Of a DNA stretch of 64,000 bases, positions 3,378 through 35,321 are shown in pieces. The stretch covers positions 1-64,000 of the forward strand of contig NZ_QYUP01000008.1 in assembly GCF_003590855.1 (NCBI RefSeq). Direction: 5' to 3'. How positions within the stretch are numbered: position 1 is the first letter of the stretch; every line of letters begins with the position of its first letter. The stretch is from Massilia cavernae (GTDB taxonomy: Bacteria; Pseudomonadota; Gammaproteobacteria; Burkholderiales; Burkholderiaceae_D). The translations under genes and the position numbers were made by a program. The notes below the pieces were generated by a model. It had not been told where the DNA came from. It did no database searches and saw nothing but the letters and a program-made list of their open reading frames with translations.

Positions 3378-5075
3378 TCAGATTTGCTCCGAGAAACCTC
3401 GTCCTTCAGAGGGTGTCGCAAAACGTTTTTCTGCGATCACATCAGGCCCGGGCGATGTTGTGGTTGAGGACGCAAGCCCAAAAAACGCGGCATGCGGCCG
3501 AAAAAACGTATGCGCCCCTCTGAGAGCGTATGGAACGGCGTAAAAGTAGAAAAACAGCGCTCTCAGCAGGGCAACCGCTCTGGACAAGTCGTACGCGATG
3601 ACATGTAAGGCAAATTCGCGCTTGACCGCCTGTAGCCCACGTCGGCGAAAGCGATCCAGGCCCTGCTGACCGCGCAGGCTGCTGAACACTGGTTCGACGA
3701 TCGCCTTGCGCTGGCTGAAAATGTAGCGCGCCTGGCGATGCTGCATCACGAGACGAAGCGCGTCCCGTTGCTCATCCTCGGGGTAGCGCTTGATGCGCCG
3801 CCCCTGCGCGGCCTTCGTACAGTTCGCACGCAGGCGGCAAGCTGTGCAGCTTGATGCCGCATACACGCTCACTGCCCGCGTGCGCGGTGTTTCTCCGCAT
3901 TTGGAAATGAGGACCAAGGTTTGGCCGGCAGGGCATCGGTAAGTGTCGGTATGCGCGTCGTAGGTGAATGCGCTCTTGTGGTACAGCCCCTCCTCTTTGG
4001 TCTTGGCAGGCCACTGGCCCTCCGGACACAACAAGCTGATATCGCGTGTGAGCGTCGCGTCAATCACTTCATCATCGAAGTAGCCGGCGTCGAGCAGCAA
4101 TTCCCTGACATCTTCTCCAGTCACGCGTGCACTTTGATCGAGCATCGGTGCGATCACCTTCGTCTCGCTCGATGGATCGATTTCGAAGGCTGTGATGATT
4201 CTGTCTGGATTTGCCAGTACCGATGGTTTGTACGACGCCGCAAACCCGTGTCCACGTTTCAGGCGCTGTACCATGGCCTCCGGTTCGCTGCCGCTGATAC
4301 GCAAGGTCTCGACATTCTTGCCATTGCTGCGGCGCGCAGTCTGGCGCTGCTCGAAGAGTTCCTGGCATCGCGCACTGCGTTCCTGTTCCTGCTGCGCCGC
4401 CCGATTCTCCGGTGTGCGTTCTACGGCCTGGTGCGCCGCTGTTGCGCGCGCCTTGACGGCCTCTTCCTTGAGCAGATTGTAGTGCGAGCAAGCCGCTTCA
4501 ATAACGGTGCCGTCACCGGCCAACCGAGCGCTGCCAGAACCCGTCGCTTTCAAAATCGACCCGGTCAGCGATTCAAAGAAATCCCGGGTCAGCGACGCTT
4601 CATGCTGGACGATGAAGCGTCCGATGTTGGCATGGTCCGGCGCGATGCCGCCGGTCACCCACATGCATCCGAGATCGAGTCGCGCCAGCCGTTCCAATTC
4701 GCGCAGGGAATGCACCCCTTGCATCACGCCGTACAGGATCAGGCCGACCATCAGTTGCGGCGCATAGGGAGCGCGGCCAGTTGCAGCGTAGCGCCGCTCA
4801 AACGCTTGCCAGTCTTGTGCTCCGAGCAGACGGGCCACGGTAAATGGAGCATGCTGGCCAGAACGCTTCAGATGTTCTTCCAGACGCATCGTCCCCAGGA
4901 AAATGGCGTTGGCATCGCCCGTCACGAAACGCCGACCGCTATGGACCGCCGTTTGCAGAGCCGGCGCATCCGAACCTGCCGGCACGCCGCCAAACAAATC
5001 GTACTGCGGATCGTCGGGCGAAGGTAATTTGCGGGTGCTGCTCATTGTCGGTTCCTGGCGTTTCATTCTGAGCAA
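3378..5075 (-). CDS. IS1182-family transposase
   Basis: DDE transposase of 565 residues. The N-terminal DUF772-like region contains PQLMVGLILYGVMQGVHSLRELE. Catalytic acidic positions are suggested by LAGDGTVIEA, LLLDAGYFDD and the C-terminal KAIVEPVFSSLRG block. A zinc-like cysteine cluster (CTACRLRANC) precedes the last domain. The reading frame has no stop inside the element: it passes through the terminal repeat at 3409-3423 and ends at 3378 in flanking DNA, so the last residues (about GRGFSEQI) come from the target. The natural C-terminus is therefore altered, although the catalytic core is complete. Confidence 0.9.
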   Translation of the reverse strand: MLRMKRQEPTMSSTRKLPSPDDPQYDLFGGVPAGSDAPALQTAVHSGRRFVTGDANAIFLGTMRLEEHLKRSGQHAPFTVARLLGAQDWQAFERRYAATGRAPYAPQLMVGLILYGVMQGVHSLRELERLARLDLGCMWVTGGIAPDHANIGRFIVQHEASLTRDFFESLTGSILKATGSGSARLAGDGTVIEAACSHYNLLKEEAVKARATAAHQAVERTPENRAAQQEQERSARCQELFEQRQTARRSNGKNVETLRISGSEPEAMVQRLKRGHGFAASYKPSVLANPDRIITAFEIDPSSETKVIAPMLDQSARVTGEDVRELLLDAGYFDDEVIDATLTRDISLLCPEGQWPAKTKEEGLYHKSAFTYDAHTDTYRCPAGQTLVLISKCGETPRTRAVSVYAASSCTACRLRANCTKAAQGRRIKRYPEDEQRDALRLVMQHRQARYIFSQRKAIVEPVFSSLRGQQGLDRFRRRGLQAVKREFALHVIAYDLSRAVALLRALFFYFYAVPYALRGAHTFFRPHAAFFGLASSTTTSPGPDVIAEKRFATPSEGRGFSEQI

Positions 5076-8804: not shown

Positions 8805-11579
8805 ATGCCCGAACAAAAGCAACCCCTGTGGTCCCGTTCCGTCGCTGCCGCCCTTGCGGTATCGCTCGGCATCACCGGCGTCGGTTGCAGCGGCAATACC
8901 GAGGTCGCCCCGCTGATCGCCGAAGCGCGCAAATACCGCGCGCAGGGCGAAATCAAGGCTGCCGTGATCCAGCTCAAGAACGCCATCCAGCGCGACGAAG
9001 GCAGCGGCGCCGCGCGCATCCTGCTGGCCGAGGTTTACCTGGACGAAGGCGACGCGGCGTCGGCCGACAAGGACCTGCGGCGTGCCATGGCCGCTGGAGG
9101 CGACGCCGCCCAGGTCGCGCCGCTGCTGGGCAAGGCTATGCTGATGCAGGGGCAGTACGACCGGCTGCTGGCGGACATCGTCCCGGTCGGCGCCGCGTCG
9201 GTGCGGCCGGCCCTGCTGGCCCTGCGCGGTTCGGCCTTCCTCGGGCTCGGCAAGGTGGAACCGGCGCGCGAACTGCTGAACGACGCGTTGAAACTGGCGC
9301 CACACTCGATCGAGGCCCTGATCTGGGCATGGCAAGCTGGAACAACGGATGGTCGAAGGCAATGCGGCCGAAGCGGGCAACTGGATCGTGCGCGCGCTGG
9401 CGGCCGGCCAGCGGACACCGAGCTTCTGCGCCTGCGGGCGACGTCGACCGAGCCACGGCAAGGCCGGCGCGGCGATGGCTCGTACATACAGAAAAATACT
9501 GCGAACTGCGTCCGGCAACGCGCATGTCTGGTCCGACATGCCAACCTGCACTCGAGGAGGGCAGGCTGCAGGAAGCGCGCACGGCTATCGAGCAGGCGCG
9601 CAAGTCCGGCGCCGGGCGCCGCGGTTGTGATCCTTCCCAGGCCATGCTGATTTCCCGCGAAGGCAAACACAGGCGCACTCGCCGCGGCCCAGAACATCCT
9701 GCGCGGAAACTACCGGAGCACATGCCCAGCGTGCTGCTGGCGGGGGCGTGCATCGCGCACTGGGTTCGAGCCGCAAGCGCAAACAGCATGCAGACTTCCT
9801 CGGAGCCATCCGACGCACCTGTACCGCATCTCGGCTGCTGGCTCGGTCACATCCGCATAACGCCCCGGCGGACGCGCTCGACCTGCTGCGTCCGCTGATA
9901 CTCGCCATCCGCGCGACGTCGAACTGCTTGCGCTGGCTGGCGAGGCCCACCTGCGCGCCCGGCAGTTCACCCAGGCCGCGGAACTGTTCCAGAACGCGGC
10001 GGCGCTGCGTCCCGACGCGGCCGGCCTGCACACCGGCCTTGCCCTCTCCAGCCTCGGCACCGGCGAGAACGGCCGGGCCGTCGCCGAACTGGAGCGCGCT
10101 GCCTCGCTCGACAAGGGCACCCAGCGCGCCGGCATCTTGCTGACCATGAGCTACCTGCGCGCGAGGGCGCCCGACAAGGCCATGGCGGCGGTGGTGCAAA
10201 TGGAGAAGAACGGCAGCAATCCGCTGGTCCAGAACCTCAAGGGCGGTGTCCACCTGGCCAAACAGGACCTGGCCGGCGCGCGGGCCAGCTTCGAGGAGGC
10301 CCTCAAGCTCGACCCGCTCTACATGCCCGCCCTCGACAACCTGGCACAACTGGACACGATGGAAAAGCGGCCCGGCGGGGCGCGGCAGCGCTACATGGCC
10401 GCACTGGCTCGATCGCCCGGCAATCCCCTTCTGATGGAAGCGCTGGCGCGCCTCGCTGCCGCCGAAGGCAAGACCGGCGAAGCGCGACAATGGCTCGCAC
10501 GCGCCCTGAACGACAACCCGGACGATCTGCGGGCCGGGCTCCGGCTTGTGGAATTCGACGTTCGCGCGGGCGACAAGCAGAAGGCGCTTGTGCTGGCGCA
10601 AAAGATCCAGACCAGCCACCCCGCCAACGTGGACGCGCGCGCCATGCTCGCCCACGTGTCTTACGCCAACGACAACTTCGCCGCGGCCGCCGAGGAATAC
10701 GCCCGACTCACTGCGATGTCGCCCAACAACGCCGGGCTGCACGCGCGCTACGCCACGGTACAAATGAGCATGGAGGATATGGCGGGCGCTGAAGCATCAC
10801 TGCGCAAGGCGCTGTCGATCGCGCCGGACATGACCGCCGCCCAGCTCTCGCTGCTGAACGTCCTGATCGCGCAAAAGAAGTTCCCCGCCGCGCTGTCGTA
10901 CGCCAAAACGGTGCAGGAAAAGCAGCCCGCATCCGCAAGCGGATTCAAGTACGAGGGCGACGTCCACGGCGCGCAGGGCATGCACGCGGCGGCGGTCAAG
11001 GCCTACGAGCGTGCGTTTGTGTTGCAACAAAGCAGCGCGCTGGTCACCCAGCTCCACGGCGCGCTGACCCGGGCCGGCAAAGCCGGCGAGGCCAAGGCGC
11101 GCATCACCGGCTGGCTTGGCCAGCACCCCGGCGACATCGCCACTCGGATGTACTTTGCCAGCGGACTGCTGCTGGCGAAGGACGTCGAAGCCGGCGCCGA
11201 ACACCTGCATGCCGTACTCCGTTTCGACCCGGCTAACGTGATGGCGCTCAACGACCTGGCCTGGGCCTCGCAGCAACTGAAGCGCAAGGACGCCCTCTCC
11301 TACGCCGAGCGCGCCTACAAGCTGGCGCCGAACAATGCAGCCGTGCTCGACACGCTGGGCTGGATCCTGATGGACAATGGCGAAACCCGGCGCGCGCTGC
11401 CGCTGCTGAAAAATGCCAGCGCCCTTGCGCCCGGCTCCAGCGACATCCGCTTCCACTACGGCGCCGCGCTCGCCAAAAGCGGGGACAAGCGCAGCGCCCG
11501 CGCTGAGATCGAGCGCGCCATGGCCGGCACGTCCTTCACCCACAAAGCCGAAGCGAAAGCCCTGCTCGCCACCCTCTGA
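8805..11579 (+). pseudogene. prsT: PEP-CTERM system TPR-repeat lipoprotein PrsT (multiple frameshifts)
   Basis: The gene would encode roughly 920 residues of TPR repeats. The N-terminal part (8805 to about 9322) has a signal-like segment ending ITGVGCSG, a possible but weak lipobox, and repeats such as ILLAEVYLDEGDAASADKDL. From about 9909 to 11579 the frame is open and clean, with many 34-residue repeats (for example ALDNLAQLDTMEKRPGGARQR and DTLGWILMDNGETRRALPLL). Between about 9323 and 9908 the TPR reading jumps frame several times. PrsT is the large TPR protein typical of exosortase-A polysaccharide loci, which fits the neighbours. The break is either decay or a poorly assembled stretch; the conserved flanks and clustering favour the latter. 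CGGAGAG precedes the ATG. Confidence 0.75.
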
Positions 11580-11628: not shown

Positions 11629-13272
11629 TTACAGGGGCGGTGGCTGGTAGCGGCCGGGGGCAATGATACCGTCGGGATCGAGTGCGGCTTTGATCTGGCG
11701 GACAGTCGCCCAGAAGACGTCCGAATGTGGATCGAGCTGGGCCATCGACTGGTTGCCGACCCGGTAAGGTACGTATCCCTCGGCCATGCACAGGTCGAAC
11801 ACTTTCTGGTAGCAGCCCAAAGCCCGCGCCACTTCGTCCGGATCGTCCTTATCGTACGCCACCGTGATGACGCCGCCCAAGGCACGCTCGTTGATCATGC
11901 TGAAGGTAATGAACAGGTCGAAGCGGAACTCCGCGAACACTGGTTCGACCAGCCGGTACACCGCAAGCAGGTCCGCGCCGCGCATCGGGAGGATCGGCGA
12001 TACCCACAACAGGCCGCAGTTGTCGGCCGCAGGATTGGCATCGTGCGGGAAGCCGGACGGCAGCCCGCCGCGCCGGCGCCAGTACGCGCCGGCGAGGAAA
12101 CGCCCGTTCGGCACGCCGCGGTTCATGGCAAAGAGTGCTTCGCCCAAGTCGACCCTGGCCCGCATCCGCTTGCCGGCCCTTGTTCCGCCCAGCAGGCGCG
12201 CCGCCAACGCGCCCAGCCGCAGCCTGCCTTCGGTGAGGATGATGGTCCGCGCTGGCGTTGGCTTCATCGCCTGCTTGAGCGCATGGCGCGCCGCCGCGAC
12301 CTGCCGCTTGCTGCCGTACAGCGCGCCCGATACAGTCCACGCACCCACGCCCGCGCCCTCGCGCATGCGCTGGCGCAGTCCTCCTGGCAGCATCGGCGCG
12401 CCACCTGCCTGCTCGCGCGGATACACGGTGCCGCCCGACAGCACGCGCAGGTCATTGCCGATGTGGAGGATGCTGCGCAGGGTGCCGTCCATGCGCAGCG
12501 GCCGCAACGCGTCCACCACCGCGCCGATGTCCTCGTGCCGTTCGACCGTGCAGAAGAAGTGTTCGACCGCTTCGGACTTCGGCATCAGCCAGATCGCGAT
12601 CCGCGTCACGATGCCGAAGTTCGACTGGGTGAACAGCCCGTCGAGGAAAGGCCCCACCCCGTATGGGAACAGGTAGGCGGCCCTGGCATTCGGGTAGTGC
12701 CCGAACCCTGTCTCGAGCACGTCGCCGCTGGCCAGCACCACCTGCATCCCGGCGACGTGCTGCAGCCTATTGCCGTAGGGTGAATGGCCGAAGCCGCGTT
12801 CGAGGATGTTCCCCATGAAGCTGGTATCCGGCCCCGCCCCTGTGCAGTCGATCCAGAAATCGAGCTTGTGTGCTGCCAAATATTCCGACAGCTGCCGCTG
12901 CGTGACCCCCGGTTCGATCACGGCGTAGGCCAGCGTTGGATCGACCGTGATAATCCGGTTCATGCGCGACAGCTCGACGATCACCTGGCCCTCGGTCACC
13001 GGGCAGGCGTCGCCGTAGCCCCAGTTCTTGCCTGTGCTGATGGGGTAGACCGGCGTGCGGTGGCGCAGCGCCGCCCGCACAACGCCGGCCACTTCCGCCA
13101 CGCTGCCCGGCGTGACCACCGCCAGCGCGCGGGTGCTGCGCGAGGCGGTGCTGCGCGCATAGCGCTCCAGCGTGGCGACGTCGTCGCGTATTTGCGCGCC
13201 GCCCACGATGGCGCGCAGCTCGTCCAGCAAGTACACGTTCGCCGCCGCTCCATGTTCGAAGGTCGCGCCCAT
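11629..13272 (-). CDS. FAD-linked oxidase of the vanillyl-alcohol oxidase / 4-cresol dehydrogenase type
   Basis: Flavoprotein of 547 residues. The FAD-binding PCMH-type domain contains AVVTPGSVAEVAGVVRAAL and PISTGKNWGYGDACPV. It is followed by the substrate-domain landmarks ERGFGHSPYGNRLQH and LFPYGVGPFLDGLFTQSNFGIVT, which correspond closely to the VAO/PCMH family rather than to generic lactate or glycolate oxidases. Known relatives oxidise para-alkylphenols at the benzylic carbon. The substrate here is unknown. The start ATG at 13272 follows a G-rich Shine-Dalgarno and lies 8 bp after the FeeM-like acyltransferase gene, so the two are co-transcribed. No signal peptide is visible, implying a cytoplasmic enzyme. 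Confidence 0.85.
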   Translation of the reverse strand: MGATFEHGAAANVYLLDELRAIVGGAQIRDDVATLERYARSTASRSTRALAVVTPGSVAEVAGVVRAALRHRTPVYPISTGKNWGYGDACPVTEGQVIVELSRMNRIITVDPTLAYAVIEPGVTQRQLSEYLAAHKLDFWIDCTGAGPDTSFMGNILERGFGHSPYGNRLQHVAGMQVVLASGDVLETGFGHYPNARAAYLFPYGVGPFLDGLFTQSNFGIVTRIAIWLMPKSEAVEHFFCTVERHEDIGAVVDALRPLRMDGTLRSILHIGNDLRVLSGGTVYPREQAGGAPMLPGGLRQRMREGAGVGAWTVSGALYGSKRQVAAARHALKQAMKPTPARTIILTEGRLRLGALAARLLGGTRAGKRMRARVDLGEALFAMNRGVPNGRFLAGAYWRRRGGLPSGFPHDANPAADNCGLLWVSPILPMRGADLLAVYRLVEPVFAEFRFDLFITFSMINERALGGVITVAYDKDDPDEVARALGCYQKVFDLCMAEGYVPYRVGNQSMAQLDPHSDVFWATVRQIKAALDPDGIIAPGRYQPPPL

Positions 13273-13280
13273 GGCGCCCC

Positions 13281-14024
13281 CTAGCTGCGCCCGGTGAGCA
13301 GCCGAGCGGTGATGCCCGGCTCGTCCCAGGCAGGAAAGAAGTAGGGATAGAACGAGCGTTCCTCGCCGTGCGCCTCCATCAGGCCGCCCCATTTGCGGAT
13401 CTGCTCGCCCATGTATTCAAGCTCCAGCCGCAGCAGCACCGCGGGTGCACCCACCCGCGTACACGGCCGCTCGCCGCCGAAGTCGCCGAAGCCCAGCATG
13501 CGCTTGTAGAACATCACGTGGCGCGGATTGACCTCGATCACATAGTCGCTGAAGCGGTGGATGTTGTGGGCGTAGATGTAGGAGATGTGGATCAGCGCGG
13601 CGAACACGCGCTTGGTCACGCCCTTGTCGATCGCCAGCCGCGACGGCTCGCACAGGCGCCGCCCCTGCGCCCGCAGGCCGTCCAGCATGTCGCGGAAGTT
13701 TTCATCAGCAGGCAGGCGGGTGTCCCGGTCCAGGCACAGGCTCATCGTACCGACCACCATGCCCCCGGTCTCGGCGTACAGCGTGACCTTGTTGGCTTCG
13801 TGTTCCTCGCCCGGCTCGAAGGCATAGCCGCGCCAGCCGTACATCTTGCGGATCAGGAGGCTGGCCGCCTCGCGCCGCCCGGCCGAATTGGCAAGGCGGA
13901 TGTGGAACACCTGCACGTCGAGCGGATGGTCCAGGCGTGCGTCCATGCCCTGTTCGCCGATGCACAGCTCGCGCAAGCCGGTGGGACATACAAACGAGGC
14001 AATGGGGAGCTCGTCGTTCAGCAT
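13281..14024 (-). CDS. PEP-CTERM/exosortase-associated FeeM-like N-acyltransferase
   Basis: Protein of 247 residues of the exosortase-associated acyltransferase family, related by fold to N-acyl amino acid synthase FeeM and to autoinducer synthases (GNAT-like). Conserved features are DVQVFHIRLANSAGRREAASLLIRKMY, GGMVVGTMSLCLDRDTRLPAD, EPSRLAIDKG and YVIEVNPRHVMFYKRMLGF. Family members are proposed to move a fatty acyl group from acyl-ACP to an amino acid such as tyrosine. The start ATG 14024 is preceded by GGAGGA. It is the first gene of a two-gene unit with the VAO-type oxidase downstream. Its presence inside an XrtA locus is typical, but the product has not been defined for the family. Confidence 0.82.
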   Translation of the reverse strand: MLNDELPIASFVCPTGLRELCIGEQGMDARLDHPLDVQVFHIRLANSAGRREAASLLIRKMYGWRGYAFEPGEEHEANKVTLYAETGGMVVGTMSLCLDRDTRLPADENFRDMLDGLRAQGRRLCEPSRLAIDKGVTKRVFAALIHISYIYAHNIHRFSDYVIEVNPRHVMFYKRMLGFGDFGGERPCTRVGAPAVLLRLELEYMGEQIRKWGGLMEAHGEERSFYPYFFPAWDEPGITARLLTGRS

Positions 14025-14331: not shown

Positions 14332-15312
14332 ATGAAGATCGTACGCAAAACCTTGCTGCTGACGGCGATGGCCGCCAGCATCGCCATCGGTGGGATGGGC
14401 AGCGCGCGAGCCGATGCGTTCGCACAGTCCATCCTCGTCATCAACAACTTCCGGCTGCTGAACTCGTCCGGCACGCCATTCAACGTGAGCGACTTCGCCA
14501 TGCTGACAGGGACCAACGATGCCCATGCGACCGGCTCGCTGAACGGCACGTTCGCGAACGGCGCCCAGTCCTTCGGTATTTTGAGCGGCATCAATCCGGA
14601 CGTCGCCCAGCAGACGGTCGGCTTGCCCAACCCGCCGCTGGCCGAGAACGACTTCTCGCCTTTCCCCGCGCCACCCGGCGTGCCCGGCACCTTCGGTTAC
14701 GCCGACCAGAACCTGTCCGGCAGCGCGATCACCGTCGGCGACGTCCCCGCCGGCGCGCTGGCCCAGACCCGCGCCGACGCCTCGCTCGCGATGAACGGCA
14801 TGGCATCGGGAAATTCGGACGTCGGCACCTCGACCACCTTCAGCTTCGTGATGGGCGCCGAAGACACCATGACGATCGCGTTCGAGGCCAATCCCTACAC
14901 CCAGGCCCATGTATCGGCCGACGGCGCCCCGACCACCAACGCTAATGCGCGCCTGTCGTGGAGCATCAACATCGTCGACATGACGACTGGCCTGAGCGTG
15001 TTCTCCTTCGCCCCCGACGAGCTGAACGGCGCCAGCAACGTCAGCCGCACCGACGGTTTCCCGGGTACCACCACCTACGACCCGGGCACCCTGAACTTCA
15101 GCGCCACCACCGGCATGCTCAGCGTCGACAGCACCTACCAGATCACGATCCAGCACAACACGCTGGCCAACGCGCTGCAGAACCAGGCAGTGCCGGAGCC
15201 GGCCACGCTGGCGATCTTCGGGCTTGGCGTGCTGGGACTGGGCACCATCGGCCGCCGCCGGTTTTCCACCGACCCGAAGCATTTTGATTCGAATCAACGG
15301 CTTCCAAGGTAG
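14332..15312 (+). CDS. PEP-CTERM sorting-domain protein
   Basis: Secreted protein of 326 residues with an N-terminal signal peptide (MKIVRKTLLLTAMAASIAIGG) and a C-terminal sorting module. The module is VPEPATLAIFGLGVLGLGTIGRR: the VPEP box at residue 287, a hydrophobic helix, then basic residues. This is the substrate signal for exosortase. The body is a low-complexity beta-rich domain beginning DAFAQSILVINNF, resembling exosortase-dependent surface proteins of the EDSAP-1 type; that sub-assignment is tentative. Unusually, about 15 polar residues (FSTDPKHFDSNQRLPR) follow the basic cluster, where most such proteins end within a few residues. It probably serves as the surface or matrix protein that the surrounding polysaccharide locus decorates or retains. 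Confidence 0.88.
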   Translation: MKIVRKTLLLTAMAASIAIGGMGSARADAFAQSILVINNFRLLNSSGTPFNVSDFAMLTGTNDAHATGSLNGTFANGAQSFGILSGINPDVAQQTVGLPNPPLAENDFSPFPAPPGVPGTFGYADQNLSGSAITVGDVPAGALAQTRADASLAMNGMASGNSDVGTSTTFSFVMGAEDTMTIAFEANPYTQAHVSADGAPTTNANARLSWSINIVDMTTGLSVFSFAPDELNGASNVSRTDGFPGTTTYDPGTLNFSATTGMLSVDSTYQITIQHNTLANALQNQAVPEPATLAIFGLGVLGLGTIGRRRFSTDPKHFDSNQRLPR

Positions 15313-34060: not shown

Positions 34061-35321
34061 AGGGCGATTGCATGAAGGATCAGATTGCCAAGCCCAATAC
34101 TTTAGCGAGATAGTCGGTGTTCCAGCCTGCCTTTAAGCGTTTTCCGGCGATCCCGAGCTTCGTGGTCTTCTCGTTTTTCAGTAGGTTGAGAGCAATTCGA
34201 CGCAGGATGGCGAAATTTTGCGCAGCTTCGCCTACGCGGATACGGCAATCGTCCTCGCGAAATGCGACGTCCAGAACCCAGTGCATGCAGTTTTCGATGC
34301 CCCAGTGTGCCCGTACGGTCTGAGCGAGATGCGCCGCTTTGGCCGGCAGGCTGCTGATGTAGTATCGGCGTTCGACGCTGGTTTTGCCGCTACTGTTTCT
34401 GCCAATAATTTCACGCGTCGATTCGATCATGATTAGGCTTTGCAGGCCGGACCAGTGCTGGTTTTGCTGACCGAGCCAGGCGACGTCGTTGGTTACCAAG
34501 CAGCGCCGGGTTTCGATCCGTCCGTGATCTTTTTCCGTCTGGCTGTCATCCCAGAACGGGCGATCCAACTTGCCGCTATCTGCGGCATCGAACCACAGCT
34601 TGACGGCTTCGGACAGACCGGGCTGGTTGTCCTTCACGCCCAGCACATAGTCGGCGCCGCTTGCGACGATATTGGCCGCGATGTCGTGCTGGCATCCCAT
34701 CGCGTCAATCGTGATTATGGCGCCTTTGATGTCCAGCGTCGCCAACAGTTCCGGTATCGCCGTGATCTCGTTACTCTTGTCGGCTGTCCGGACCTGTCCC
34801 AGCGTCAAACCGCTTGCGCTGCTCCATGCCGACACTAGGTGAATGGCACTCTGCTTGCCATCATGCGAGCCACGTACGCACTTGCCATCGATGGCAATGT
34901 GCTGTCCCTTCAGCGAGGGACACATTGAACTCATCCAGCGCACGAAGCATGCCTCGAACTGCGTTGCGTCGAGCAGCGAAAAGACCCGTCCGAAGGTGTC
35001 GTGCGAGGCGATGCCATTGGCAAATGGAAGGTGCTGGCGCAACCAGTCGAGCTTCATCTCGCTCCATTCGACAACATTGGTCCAGCTCTCTGCCCCACTG
35101 ATGACGGCGCAGATCGCGGCCAACAGTAATTCGTCGAGTTGATATGCGCATTGCCGCGCACGCGGATCGCGCAATTCATCGAATGCTTCCACCAACGACA
35201 TCGGTCCGTTTGCCATTTTCTCGCTCAAATATCGAGAGTAAACGCCATTCTGAGCGAGTTTACAAGCAATACTTGCAACCTTTGCTCATGACAACGAGAT
35301 CGCCTTCATGCAATTGCCCTG
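34061..35321 (-). mobile_element. ISAs1-family insertion sequence
   Basis: A 1261-bp element with 19-bp terminal inverted repeats at 34061-34079 and 35303-35321 (CAGGGC-G/A-ATTGCATGAAGG, one mismatch). A perfect 10-bp target duplication, GCGCAAACGG, lies at 34051-34060 and 35322-35331. It carries one intact transposase. Perfect duplication and intact ends indicate a recent insertion. It separates the ABC-F gene from the MBL-fold gene. Confidence 0.93.
34080..35228 (-). CDS. ISAs1-family transposase
   Basis: DDE transposase of 382 residues. The N-terminal DDE_Tnp_1-associated domain has DPRARQCAYQLDELLLAAICAVISGAE. Catalytic acids lie in IAIDGKCVRGS, IITIDAMGCQ and HWGIENCMHWVLDVAFREDDCRI. 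Length and motifs match the H-repeat/ISAs1 group. The frame is intact and lies wholly within the terminal repeats, so the element may be active. Confidence 0.94.
   Translation of the reverse strand: MSEKMANGPMSLVEAFDELRDPRARQCAYQLDELLLAAICAVISGAESWTNVVEWSEMKLDWLRQHLPFANGIASHDTFGRVFSLLDATQFEACFVRWMSSMCPSLKGQHIAIDGKCVRGSHDGKQSAIHLVSAWSSASGLTLGQVRTADKSNEITAIPELLATLDIKGAIITIDAMGCQHDIAANIVASGADYVLGVKDNQPGLSEAVKLWFDAADSGKLDRPFWDDSQTEKDHGRIETRRCLVTNDVAWLGQQNQHWSGLQSLIMIESTREIIGRNSSGKTSVERRYYISSLPAKAAHLAQTVRAHWGIENCMHWVLDVAFREDDCRIRVGEAAQNFAILRRIALNLLKNEKTTKLGIAGKRLKAGWNTDYLAKVLGLAI

Follow-up and report, generated by a model that had tools for sequence, protein, structure and literature searches.

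The described systems closest to the gene pair treated here, a FeeM-type N-acyl amino acid synthase gene and a gene for an oxidase of the vanillyl-alcohol oxidase/p-cresol methylhydroxylase (VAO/PCMH) family in a 64,000-nucleotide stretch of Massilia cavernae DNA (contig NZ_QYUP01000008.1, positions 1 to 64,000; hereafter the window), are the fee cluster from environmental DNA, presumably of about 13 genes, the chondrochloren enzyme, which we take to be CndG, the VAO/PCMH flavoenzymes themselves, and the kyonggic acid-type modules. FeeG is reported to decarboxylate N-acyl-L-tyrosines oxidatively (PMC8762209), and the chondrochloren enzyme, which depends on flavin adenine dinucleotide (FAD), is described as oxidising acyl-tyrosine via a quinone methide, with spontaneous loss of CO2 if the carboxyl group is free (PMC3039461). 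In the cited portion of a third study, the VAO/PCMH tree includes an oxidative decarboxylase clade that was not studied in that work (PMC7617285). An earlier, sequence-only reading of the window had proposed that the two genes make and then oxidise an N-acyl-tyrosine; its remark that no pathway of this form had been described does not stand beside these three precedents, as far as the cited portions go. Our best reading as a whole, to which we assign a probability of about 52%, is that the FeeM-type synthase and the VAO-family enzyme form a two-step module leading from N-acyl-tyrosine to N-acyl-4-hydroxystyrylamine.

The gene pair and its products

The two genes lie on the same strand with 8 bp between them, as the sequence-only reading had it, and both frames were open and intact:

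13281..14024, minus strand: FeeM-type N-acyl amino acid synthase (P0002), first gene of the pair, 247 amino acids; PF21926, 2g0b
11629..13272, minus strand: VAO/PCMH-family flavoenzyme (P0001), 547 amino acids; Pfam and structure matches, AlphaFold2 model

The synthase matched the Pfam FeeM family (PF21926) with 178.6 bits, against a gathering cut-off of 27, and the FeeM crystal structure 2g0b with an E value of 5.8e-10. The earlier identification of a FeeM-like acyltransferase was therefore sound, but the label TIGR03694 attached to it was not: the protein gave no listed match to that profile at E up to 10 and the whole genome gave none at E 0.001, and we ruled out membership for this gene, although TIGR03694 genes elsewhere do pair with the same oxidase group. 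The oxidase matched the 4-cresol dehydrogenase structures 1wve and 1dii (E 2e-81), and the nearest fold to its AlphaFold2 model (pLDDT 89.9) was 1dii, p-cresol methylhydroxylase, at rank 1 (TM 0.86/0.91). Both results agree with the VAO/PCMH identity suggested earlier, and all three landmark peptides of that family on which the suggestion drew were present. Judged from sequence, P0001 probably oxidises an N-acylated amino acid with a phenol side chain.

On the 1dii alignment, PCMH residues Y95, Y473 and R474, which we take to be the phenolate-binding residues, correspond to Y86, Y503 and R504 of the oxidase, and 57 of 57 rows, those of catabolic enzymes among them, retain all three; the absence of such residues had been named as a finding that would count against the proposal, and alignment found them in place. 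PCMH residues E380, E427, D440, H436 and Y172, presumably placed round the benzylic site, correspond to F392, T456, T470, G466 and H163. The residue that links FAD covalently in PCMH, Tyr384, was not kept, its position being taken by Ala396 with Tyr397 next to it. One member of the VAO/PCMH family is reported to bind FAD non-covalently (PMC7617285).

Recurrence of the pair, its fusions and a second acyltransferase family

Among 294 genomes of the same family, oxidase matches at E < 1e-20 were present in 47 and FeeM in 107. A FeeM gene lay directly upstream on the same strand in 37 of 39 orthologous oxidases (59-100% identity), with 144-230 bp from the end of the FeeM domain to the oxidase match in the 37 paired loci. 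The two remaining orthologues (G108:C29 and G091:C23) were dismissed as unpaired counter-examples because the oxidase runs to a contig end. Of the weaker family oxidases (33-38% identity, n=19), 12 had a listed FeeM within 5 kb, convergent in 11 of these, and two more had a diverged FeeM about 1.2 kb away, while the five without FeeM included one at a contig end and three that clustered with catabolic enzymes in the tree.

A scan of named loci, built on the oxidase alignment and seeded by the clade motif patterns D[CS]TGAGPDT and ERGFGHSP, so that oxidases lacking both motifs could not be found, yielded 74 loci. FeeM was adjacent, upstream and on the same strand in 45 of them, fused in 4, adjacent and convergent in 1, and 3.2 or 4.4 kb away in 2; a TIGR03694-like gene lay within 1.5 kb in 6, and the upstream region was not assembled in 3. 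Carriers of the pair include Massilia soli R798, Massilia polaris RP-1-19 and Pseudoduganella umbonata CECT 7753, and in Nitrosospira sp. Nsp11 FeeM and the oxidase are 4.4 kb apart. The order kinase, chain-length gene, EDSAP, FeeM, oxidase, PrsT was common to many Massilia, Pseudoduganella, Duganella and Rugamonas loci. Twelve Massilia loci kept the pair with none of kinase, chain-length gene, EDSAP or PrsT in the flanks examined, and the pair thus stays together in differing surroundings. Beyond the family, FeeM-VAO pairs turn up only sporadically. Uniqueness to one genome, which the sequence-only reading had recognised as fatal to its case, is contradicted by the 37 of 39 family orthologues and by the named loci.

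The two enzymes also occur as one protein. In the Planctomycetota metagenome-assembled genome (MAG) NORP49 (G693), with 34 FeeM matches and 10 oxidases (12 matches, two genes being in two pieces each), all 10 oxidases were linked to FeeM: three in FeeM-VAO fusions, one in a VAO-FeeM fusion and six in adjacent pairs, three per order. Pfam confirmed FeeM and FAD_binding_4 within one protein for each fusion order. One of the fused proteins recurs with the same printed sequence in another MAG (L137, L138), these being two of the four fused named loci, and in an Elusimicrobia locus (L132) the FeeM and oxidase reading frames overlap. Together with the 37 of 39 orthologues, the fusions in both orders uphold the functional coupling first proposed for the window genes, and we hold it very probable that FeeM and the oxidase are a functional module. 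The fused proteins offer natural material for a one-expression assay. As a separate observation, some FeeMs of G693 (L136 and others) are joined to other parts, with a weak UDP-glycosyltransferase match at L243:4951-6519, and others carry long extensions, one with a weak tetratricopeptide repeat (TPR) match (L242).

Several oxidases without FeeM adjoin instead a gene of TIGR03694 (exosort_acyl). NCBIfam confirmed this family in five named loci (139.5-256.7 bits, cut-off 112; the copy at L131 is 1.5 kb off) and in seven loci of a phylum sample. Alteromonas lipolytica and Aquisalimonas lutea are among the carriers of a TIGR03694 gene beside an oxidase of this group. Profile comparison showed TIGR03694 to be distantly homologous to FeeM (hhalign 92.8%, E 3.9e-7). 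The phylum sample comprised 398 genomes, of which 30 had TIGR03694 and 40 had FeeM, none having both, and at least 20 had an oxidase match; the oxidase counts are lower bounds, three candidates per genome having been scored in full, and the FeeM, TIGR03694 and oxidase samples are taken as the same 398 genomes. All 11 genomes with an oxidase of at least 371 bits held FeeM or TIGR03694, compared with 70 of 398 overall (P 2.5e-9), and the 9 genomes with an oxidase of 320 bits or less held neither; this line between oxidase types was drawn after the scores had been seen, and the residues Q125/T144 follow the same division, with 10 of 10 among the high-scoring oxidases opened and 0 of 9 among the low-scoring. 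The oxidase lay within about 1.1 kb in six of the 30 TIGR03694 genomes and within about 10 kb in two; it was on a different contig from the acyltransferase in G632 (TIGR03694) and G628 (FeeM).

To our knowledge TIGR03694 has no tested function, and in the open-licence literature we found no functional study of it, at most a bare listing. We suggest, tentatively and as something that may well prove wrong, that there is a general exosortase-linked pathway in which an N-acyl-tyrosine-type lipid, supplied by either FeeM or TIGR03694, is passed to one dedicated VAO subfamily, and that the resulting styryl-enamide or quinone methide is a reactive lipid at the surface, through which lipid could be bound covalently to the PEP-CTERM/polysaccharide matrix. 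Dehydro-N-acyldopamines, reported to harden insect cuticle (PMC3039461), offer a comparison for such a reactive lipid. If this is true, the TIGR03694 proteins, so far named after their neighbourhood, gain a function.

The oxidase tree separated 49 rows of the group from 8 catabolic rows with SH-aLRT support of 100, and Q125 with T144 was present in 49 of 49 group rows and 0 of 8 catabolic rows. Because T144 lies in one of the scan patterns, we retested the signature on genes found by profile: Q125, T144 and G145 occurred in 20 of 20 such oxidases (10 from the phylum sample and 10 from NORP49), and Q125/T144 in 0 of 9 low-scoring ones. H163, H270 and N273 were constant in 41 main rows but not group-wide, and H163 and D142 were dropped as signature residues because the motif patterns contain them and profile-found genes often lack them. 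All trees were quick ones with long branches, used for this deep split, the clade of the window FeeM and the count of label changes. What is new here, as far as sequences can define it, is a VAO subfamily linked to exosortase systems and marked by a signature of its own, along with naturally fused forms and a function for TIGR03694 that can be put to the test.

In a tree of 135 FeeM sequences, 73 adjoined the oxidase, 21 a module of ThiF and nitroreductase genes (19 of them in the family) and 41 had neither in view. The oxidase label changed 14 times on this tree (at least 7 of the changes forced by strongly supported branches), compared with 44.5 times when shuffled. The clade of the window FeeM (n=64) comprised 53 oxidase-paired genes and 11 others, none with ThiF; the 11 are the Nitrosospira gene with its oxidase 4.4 kb off and ten in genomes without an oxidase match. 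The Massilia cavernae genome has a second FeeM (L078, G000:C140:17700-18143), followed by ThiF and nitroreductase homologues, which on sequence is likely a kyonggic-acid-type module; PrsT-like matches lie upstream of it. No ThiF or nitroreductase match was found at the window locus, although both were matched at L078. ThiF/nitroreductase relatives are reported to act on N-acyl-tyrosine in M. tuberculosis (PMC12479983), and the attachment of two unlike oxidising modules to one type of synthase suggests that both act on one type of substrate.

Proposed reaction and competing explanations

In the proposed reaction, the synthase would transfer a fatty acyl group to the amino nitrogen of an aromatic amino acid, for which L-tyrosine is the likeliest candidate; as with FeeM itself, the donor would presumably be an acyl carrier protein. 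Its VAO-family partner would hold the phenolate of the acylated product through Y86, Y503 and R504 and pass the benzylic hydride to FAD, leaving a p-quinone methide. With the free carboxylate adjacent, the most likely outcome would be loss of CO2 and rearomatisation to N-acyl-4-hydroxystyrylamine, an enamide lipid that would probably be exported or displayed with the XrtA/PEP-CTERM polysaccharide. That the substrate is a phenolic N-acyl amino acid we consider a good deal more probable than otherwise; we infer that tyrosine is the acceptor, that the reaction ends in decarboxylation, that O2 takes up the electrons and that the product has a role at the surface. Decarboxylation is favoured over desaturation or hydroxylation at little over even odds, by analogy, because of the precedents of FeeG and the chondrochloren enzyme. 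For the fate of N-acyl amino acid synthase products at exosortase loci, the pairing names a second enzyme and predicts a definite mass shift.

Several observations weigh against this reading. Many FeeMs stand without an oxidase: 49 were within 5 kb of an oxidase match among the 150 family FeeM matches listed, and the ten family FeeMs of the window clade mentioned above belong to genomes with no oxidase match at all. Neither acyltransferase family was found in the flanks of 13 of the 74 named oxidase loci, and no oxidase lay near FeeM in any of 37 opened FeeM loci of the phylum sample (38 further genomes; flanks up to about 7 kb). The phenolate triad was also present in 8 of 8 catabolic rows; it is general to the VAO/PCMH family and so does not specify acyl-tyrosine. 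The behaviour of PCMH cannot simply be transferred to this enzyme, because Tyr384, E380, E427, D440 and H436 are all replaced. Massilia umbonata, which is now Pseudoduganella umbonata (NCBI), carries the FeeM-VAO pair (L110) and holds three FeeMs in all. It is reported to make saturated kyonggic acids, derivatives of tyrosine and phenylalanine (PMC12479983), which speaks for the reading in so far as a carrier of the pair makes such compounds, but in the cited portion of that report it appears as a producer of saturated N-acyl products only; the oxidase of this strain may therefore be silent or act on something else, or what it makes may have gone undetected.

The rival that survives best, although we think it unlikely, is that the oxidase desaturates N-acyl-tyrosine through a quinone methide and loss of the alpha-proton, keeping the carboxylate, to give N-acyl-2,3-dehydrotyrosine, a product like thalassotalic or kyonggic acid. 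Dehydrotyrosine lipids are reported from Massilia, Thalassotalea and Stieleria (PMC12479983), a blocked carboxyl group is reported to favour dehydrotyrosine (PMC3039461), and the same effect might arise if the conserved TG loop bound the carboxylate. The same report on these lipids, however, ties the double bond to the ThiF and nitroreductase module (PMC12479983), which stands beside 21 of 135 FeeM rows, the second FeeM at L078 included, and the FAD enzyme reported to act on acyl-tyrosine with a free carboxylate decarboxylates it (PMC3039461).

Rather less probable is a substrate other than N-acyl-tyrosine, namely an N-acyl phenolic amine or another aromatic conjugate, which would leave the two-step logic unchanged. 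At one TIGR03694-VAO locus (L247) there are, in addition, a ligase-like gene of the exosortase-A-associated type (TIGR03098, slightly below its cut-off) and a gene for a decarboxylase (TIGR03099), which would suit such a substrate; in the window, the genes beside the pair showed no decarboxylase, and FeeM-type synthases are reported to make N-acyl aromatic amino acids (PMC8762209).

The addition of water to the quinone methide, giving a beta-hydroxy- or beta-keto-N-acyl-tyrosine as in a PCMH-like reaction, seems more doubtful still. In its favour, PCMH classically hydroxylates its substrate, and the oxidase model lies closest in fold to PCMH, but the polar residues that surround the benzylic carbon in PCMH have given way to others here (E380F, E427T, D440T, H436G, Y172H). 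An ordinary catabolic enzyme for lignin phenols, incidentally beside FeeM, is suggested by the family resemblance to VAO, PCMH and eugenol oxidase but is very improbable, and we rejected it on the conserved pairing, retained outside the polysaccharide locus, the fusions, the split from catabolic enzymes in the tree, the Q125/T144 signature and the presence of FeeM or TIGR03694 in 11 of 11 genomes with this oxidase type.

Surroundings of the pair and comparison with known systems

The pair is flanked on one side by the TPR gene PrsT and on the other by the divergent gene of an EDSAP-1 PEP-CTERM protein, within a polysaccharide locus marked by the XrtA system (matches to TIGR02917, TIGR03007, TIGR03018, TIGR03088, TIGR03013, TIGR02915 and NF041538). 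Around it are the PrsT pieces, the EDSAP-1 protein, a chain-length determinant, a tyrosine autokinase, two glycosyltransferase genes and a PEP-CTERM response regulator:

8805..9650, plus strand: N-terminal piece of PrsT (XrtA-system TPR protein), frame broken after it; TIGR02917, 133.6 bits, profile 8-163
10137..11579, plus strand: C-terminal piece of PrsT, convergent with the pair; TIGR02917, 392.3 bits, profile 436-897
14332..15312, plus strand: EDSAP-1 family PEP-CTERM protein, divergent from the pair; NF041538, 298.5 bits
15409..16932, plus strand: XrtA-system polysaccharide chain-length determinant; TIGR03007, 572.9 bits
16958..17731, plus strand: XrtA-associated tyrosine autokinase; TIGR03018, 275.6 bits
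17706..18971, plus strand: PEP-CTERM/XrtA-system glycosyltransferase; TIGR03088, 497.2 bits

Similar loci in relatives, together with these marker genes, support the suggested tie of the pair to the PEP-CTERM system, and an EDSAP-1 gene stood at the equivalent place in those Oxalobacteraceae loci that show the chain-length gene. The description of an exosortase locus is right as to the marker genes. No exosortase gene was found in the window; the sole XrtA match of the genome, which scored below the family cut-off, covered a C-terminal piece and lay where another contig (C180) begins. PrsT is split over reading frames (8805-11579, plus strand; profile gap 163-436), either by an assembly error or as a decayed gene, and PrsT-like frames were long and uninterrupted in two relatives (L069, L077). 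An ISAs1 family transposase (NCBIfam; 34080-35228, minus strand) lies on one side of the polysaccharide locus and a transposase-like open reading frame, judged by eye (3378-5075, minus strand), on the other.

Other oxidases of the survey had neighbours of their own. A Methyltransf_2 O-methyltransferase gene lies beside the oxidase in Nitrosospira (L105:9853-11034) and in a Methylococcaceae genome (L111:9858-10901), which suggests further tailoring of the phenol. FtsX/MacB-type permease matches lie near the oxidase at L130, L131, L132, L133 and L147 (checked with Pfam in L133 only), possibly a lipid export route to judge by their sequences, and L147 also has a LolA-like protein. Vibrio-type oxidases (29-33% identity) made up nine of the thirteen loci with neither acyltransferase. 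In Vibrio, Photobacterium and Zooshikella a protein of about 190-210 residues follows the oxidase (L149-L153, L155, L156, L158, L161); seven of these proteins aligned with many residues in common, there was no Pfam match in three scanned and no NCBIfam match in two, and a shallow profile of the seven matched neither FeeM nor TIGR03694. On plasmids, 351 records matched the oxidase, all under 60% identity, the highest among the 25 listed being 36.9%.

Craig, Cherry and Brady (2011) reportedly tied N-acyl amino acid synthases to PEP-CTERM/exosortase loci, and may already mention the oxidase. In the open-licence literature we found no paper joining N-acyl-tyrosine, vanillyl-alcohol oxidase and an acyltransferase, or VAO with an exosortase-linked acyltransferase, and neither "vanillyl" nor "FAD" occurs in the main text of PMC12479983. 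A pair that recurs, and is sometimes fused, may point to a class of bacterial surface lipid that has so far been missed.

Set beside the known systems, the pair shares with the fee cluster a FeeM-type synthase, and FeeG of that cluster is reported to give N-acyl-4-(2-aminovinyl)phenol (PMC8762209); the window has two genes in an XrtA polysaccharide locus, and FeeG is likened to the oxidase by its reported reaction, not by sequence. CndG offers the same FAD-dependent oxidation of an acyl-tyrosine with a quinone methide and CO2 loss (PMC3039461), again a likeness of reported reaction and not of sequence, but its substrate comes from nonribosomal peptide synthesis and not from FeeM. With PCMH (1dii/1wve), VAO and eugenol oxidase the window oxidase shares the predicted fold and the phenolate triad at about 30% identity; unlike them it lacks a Tyr at the PCMH FAD-link site, has the acids of the benzylic site replaced, and has Q125 with the TG loop and an acyltransferase partner. 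Nor is there an adjacent cytochrome c gene as in the PCMH dehydrogenase subgroup, the neighbours of the oxidase being PrsT and FeeM, in contrast to two opened plasmid PCMH-like loci that do have one. Finally, the TyzABC or kyonggic acid-type modules (N-acyl amino acid synthase, ThiF and nitroreductase) are reported likewise to make N-acyl-tyrosine and then oxidise it (PMC12479983), but they do so with oxidising enzymes unrelated to the one encoded beside FeeM in the window.

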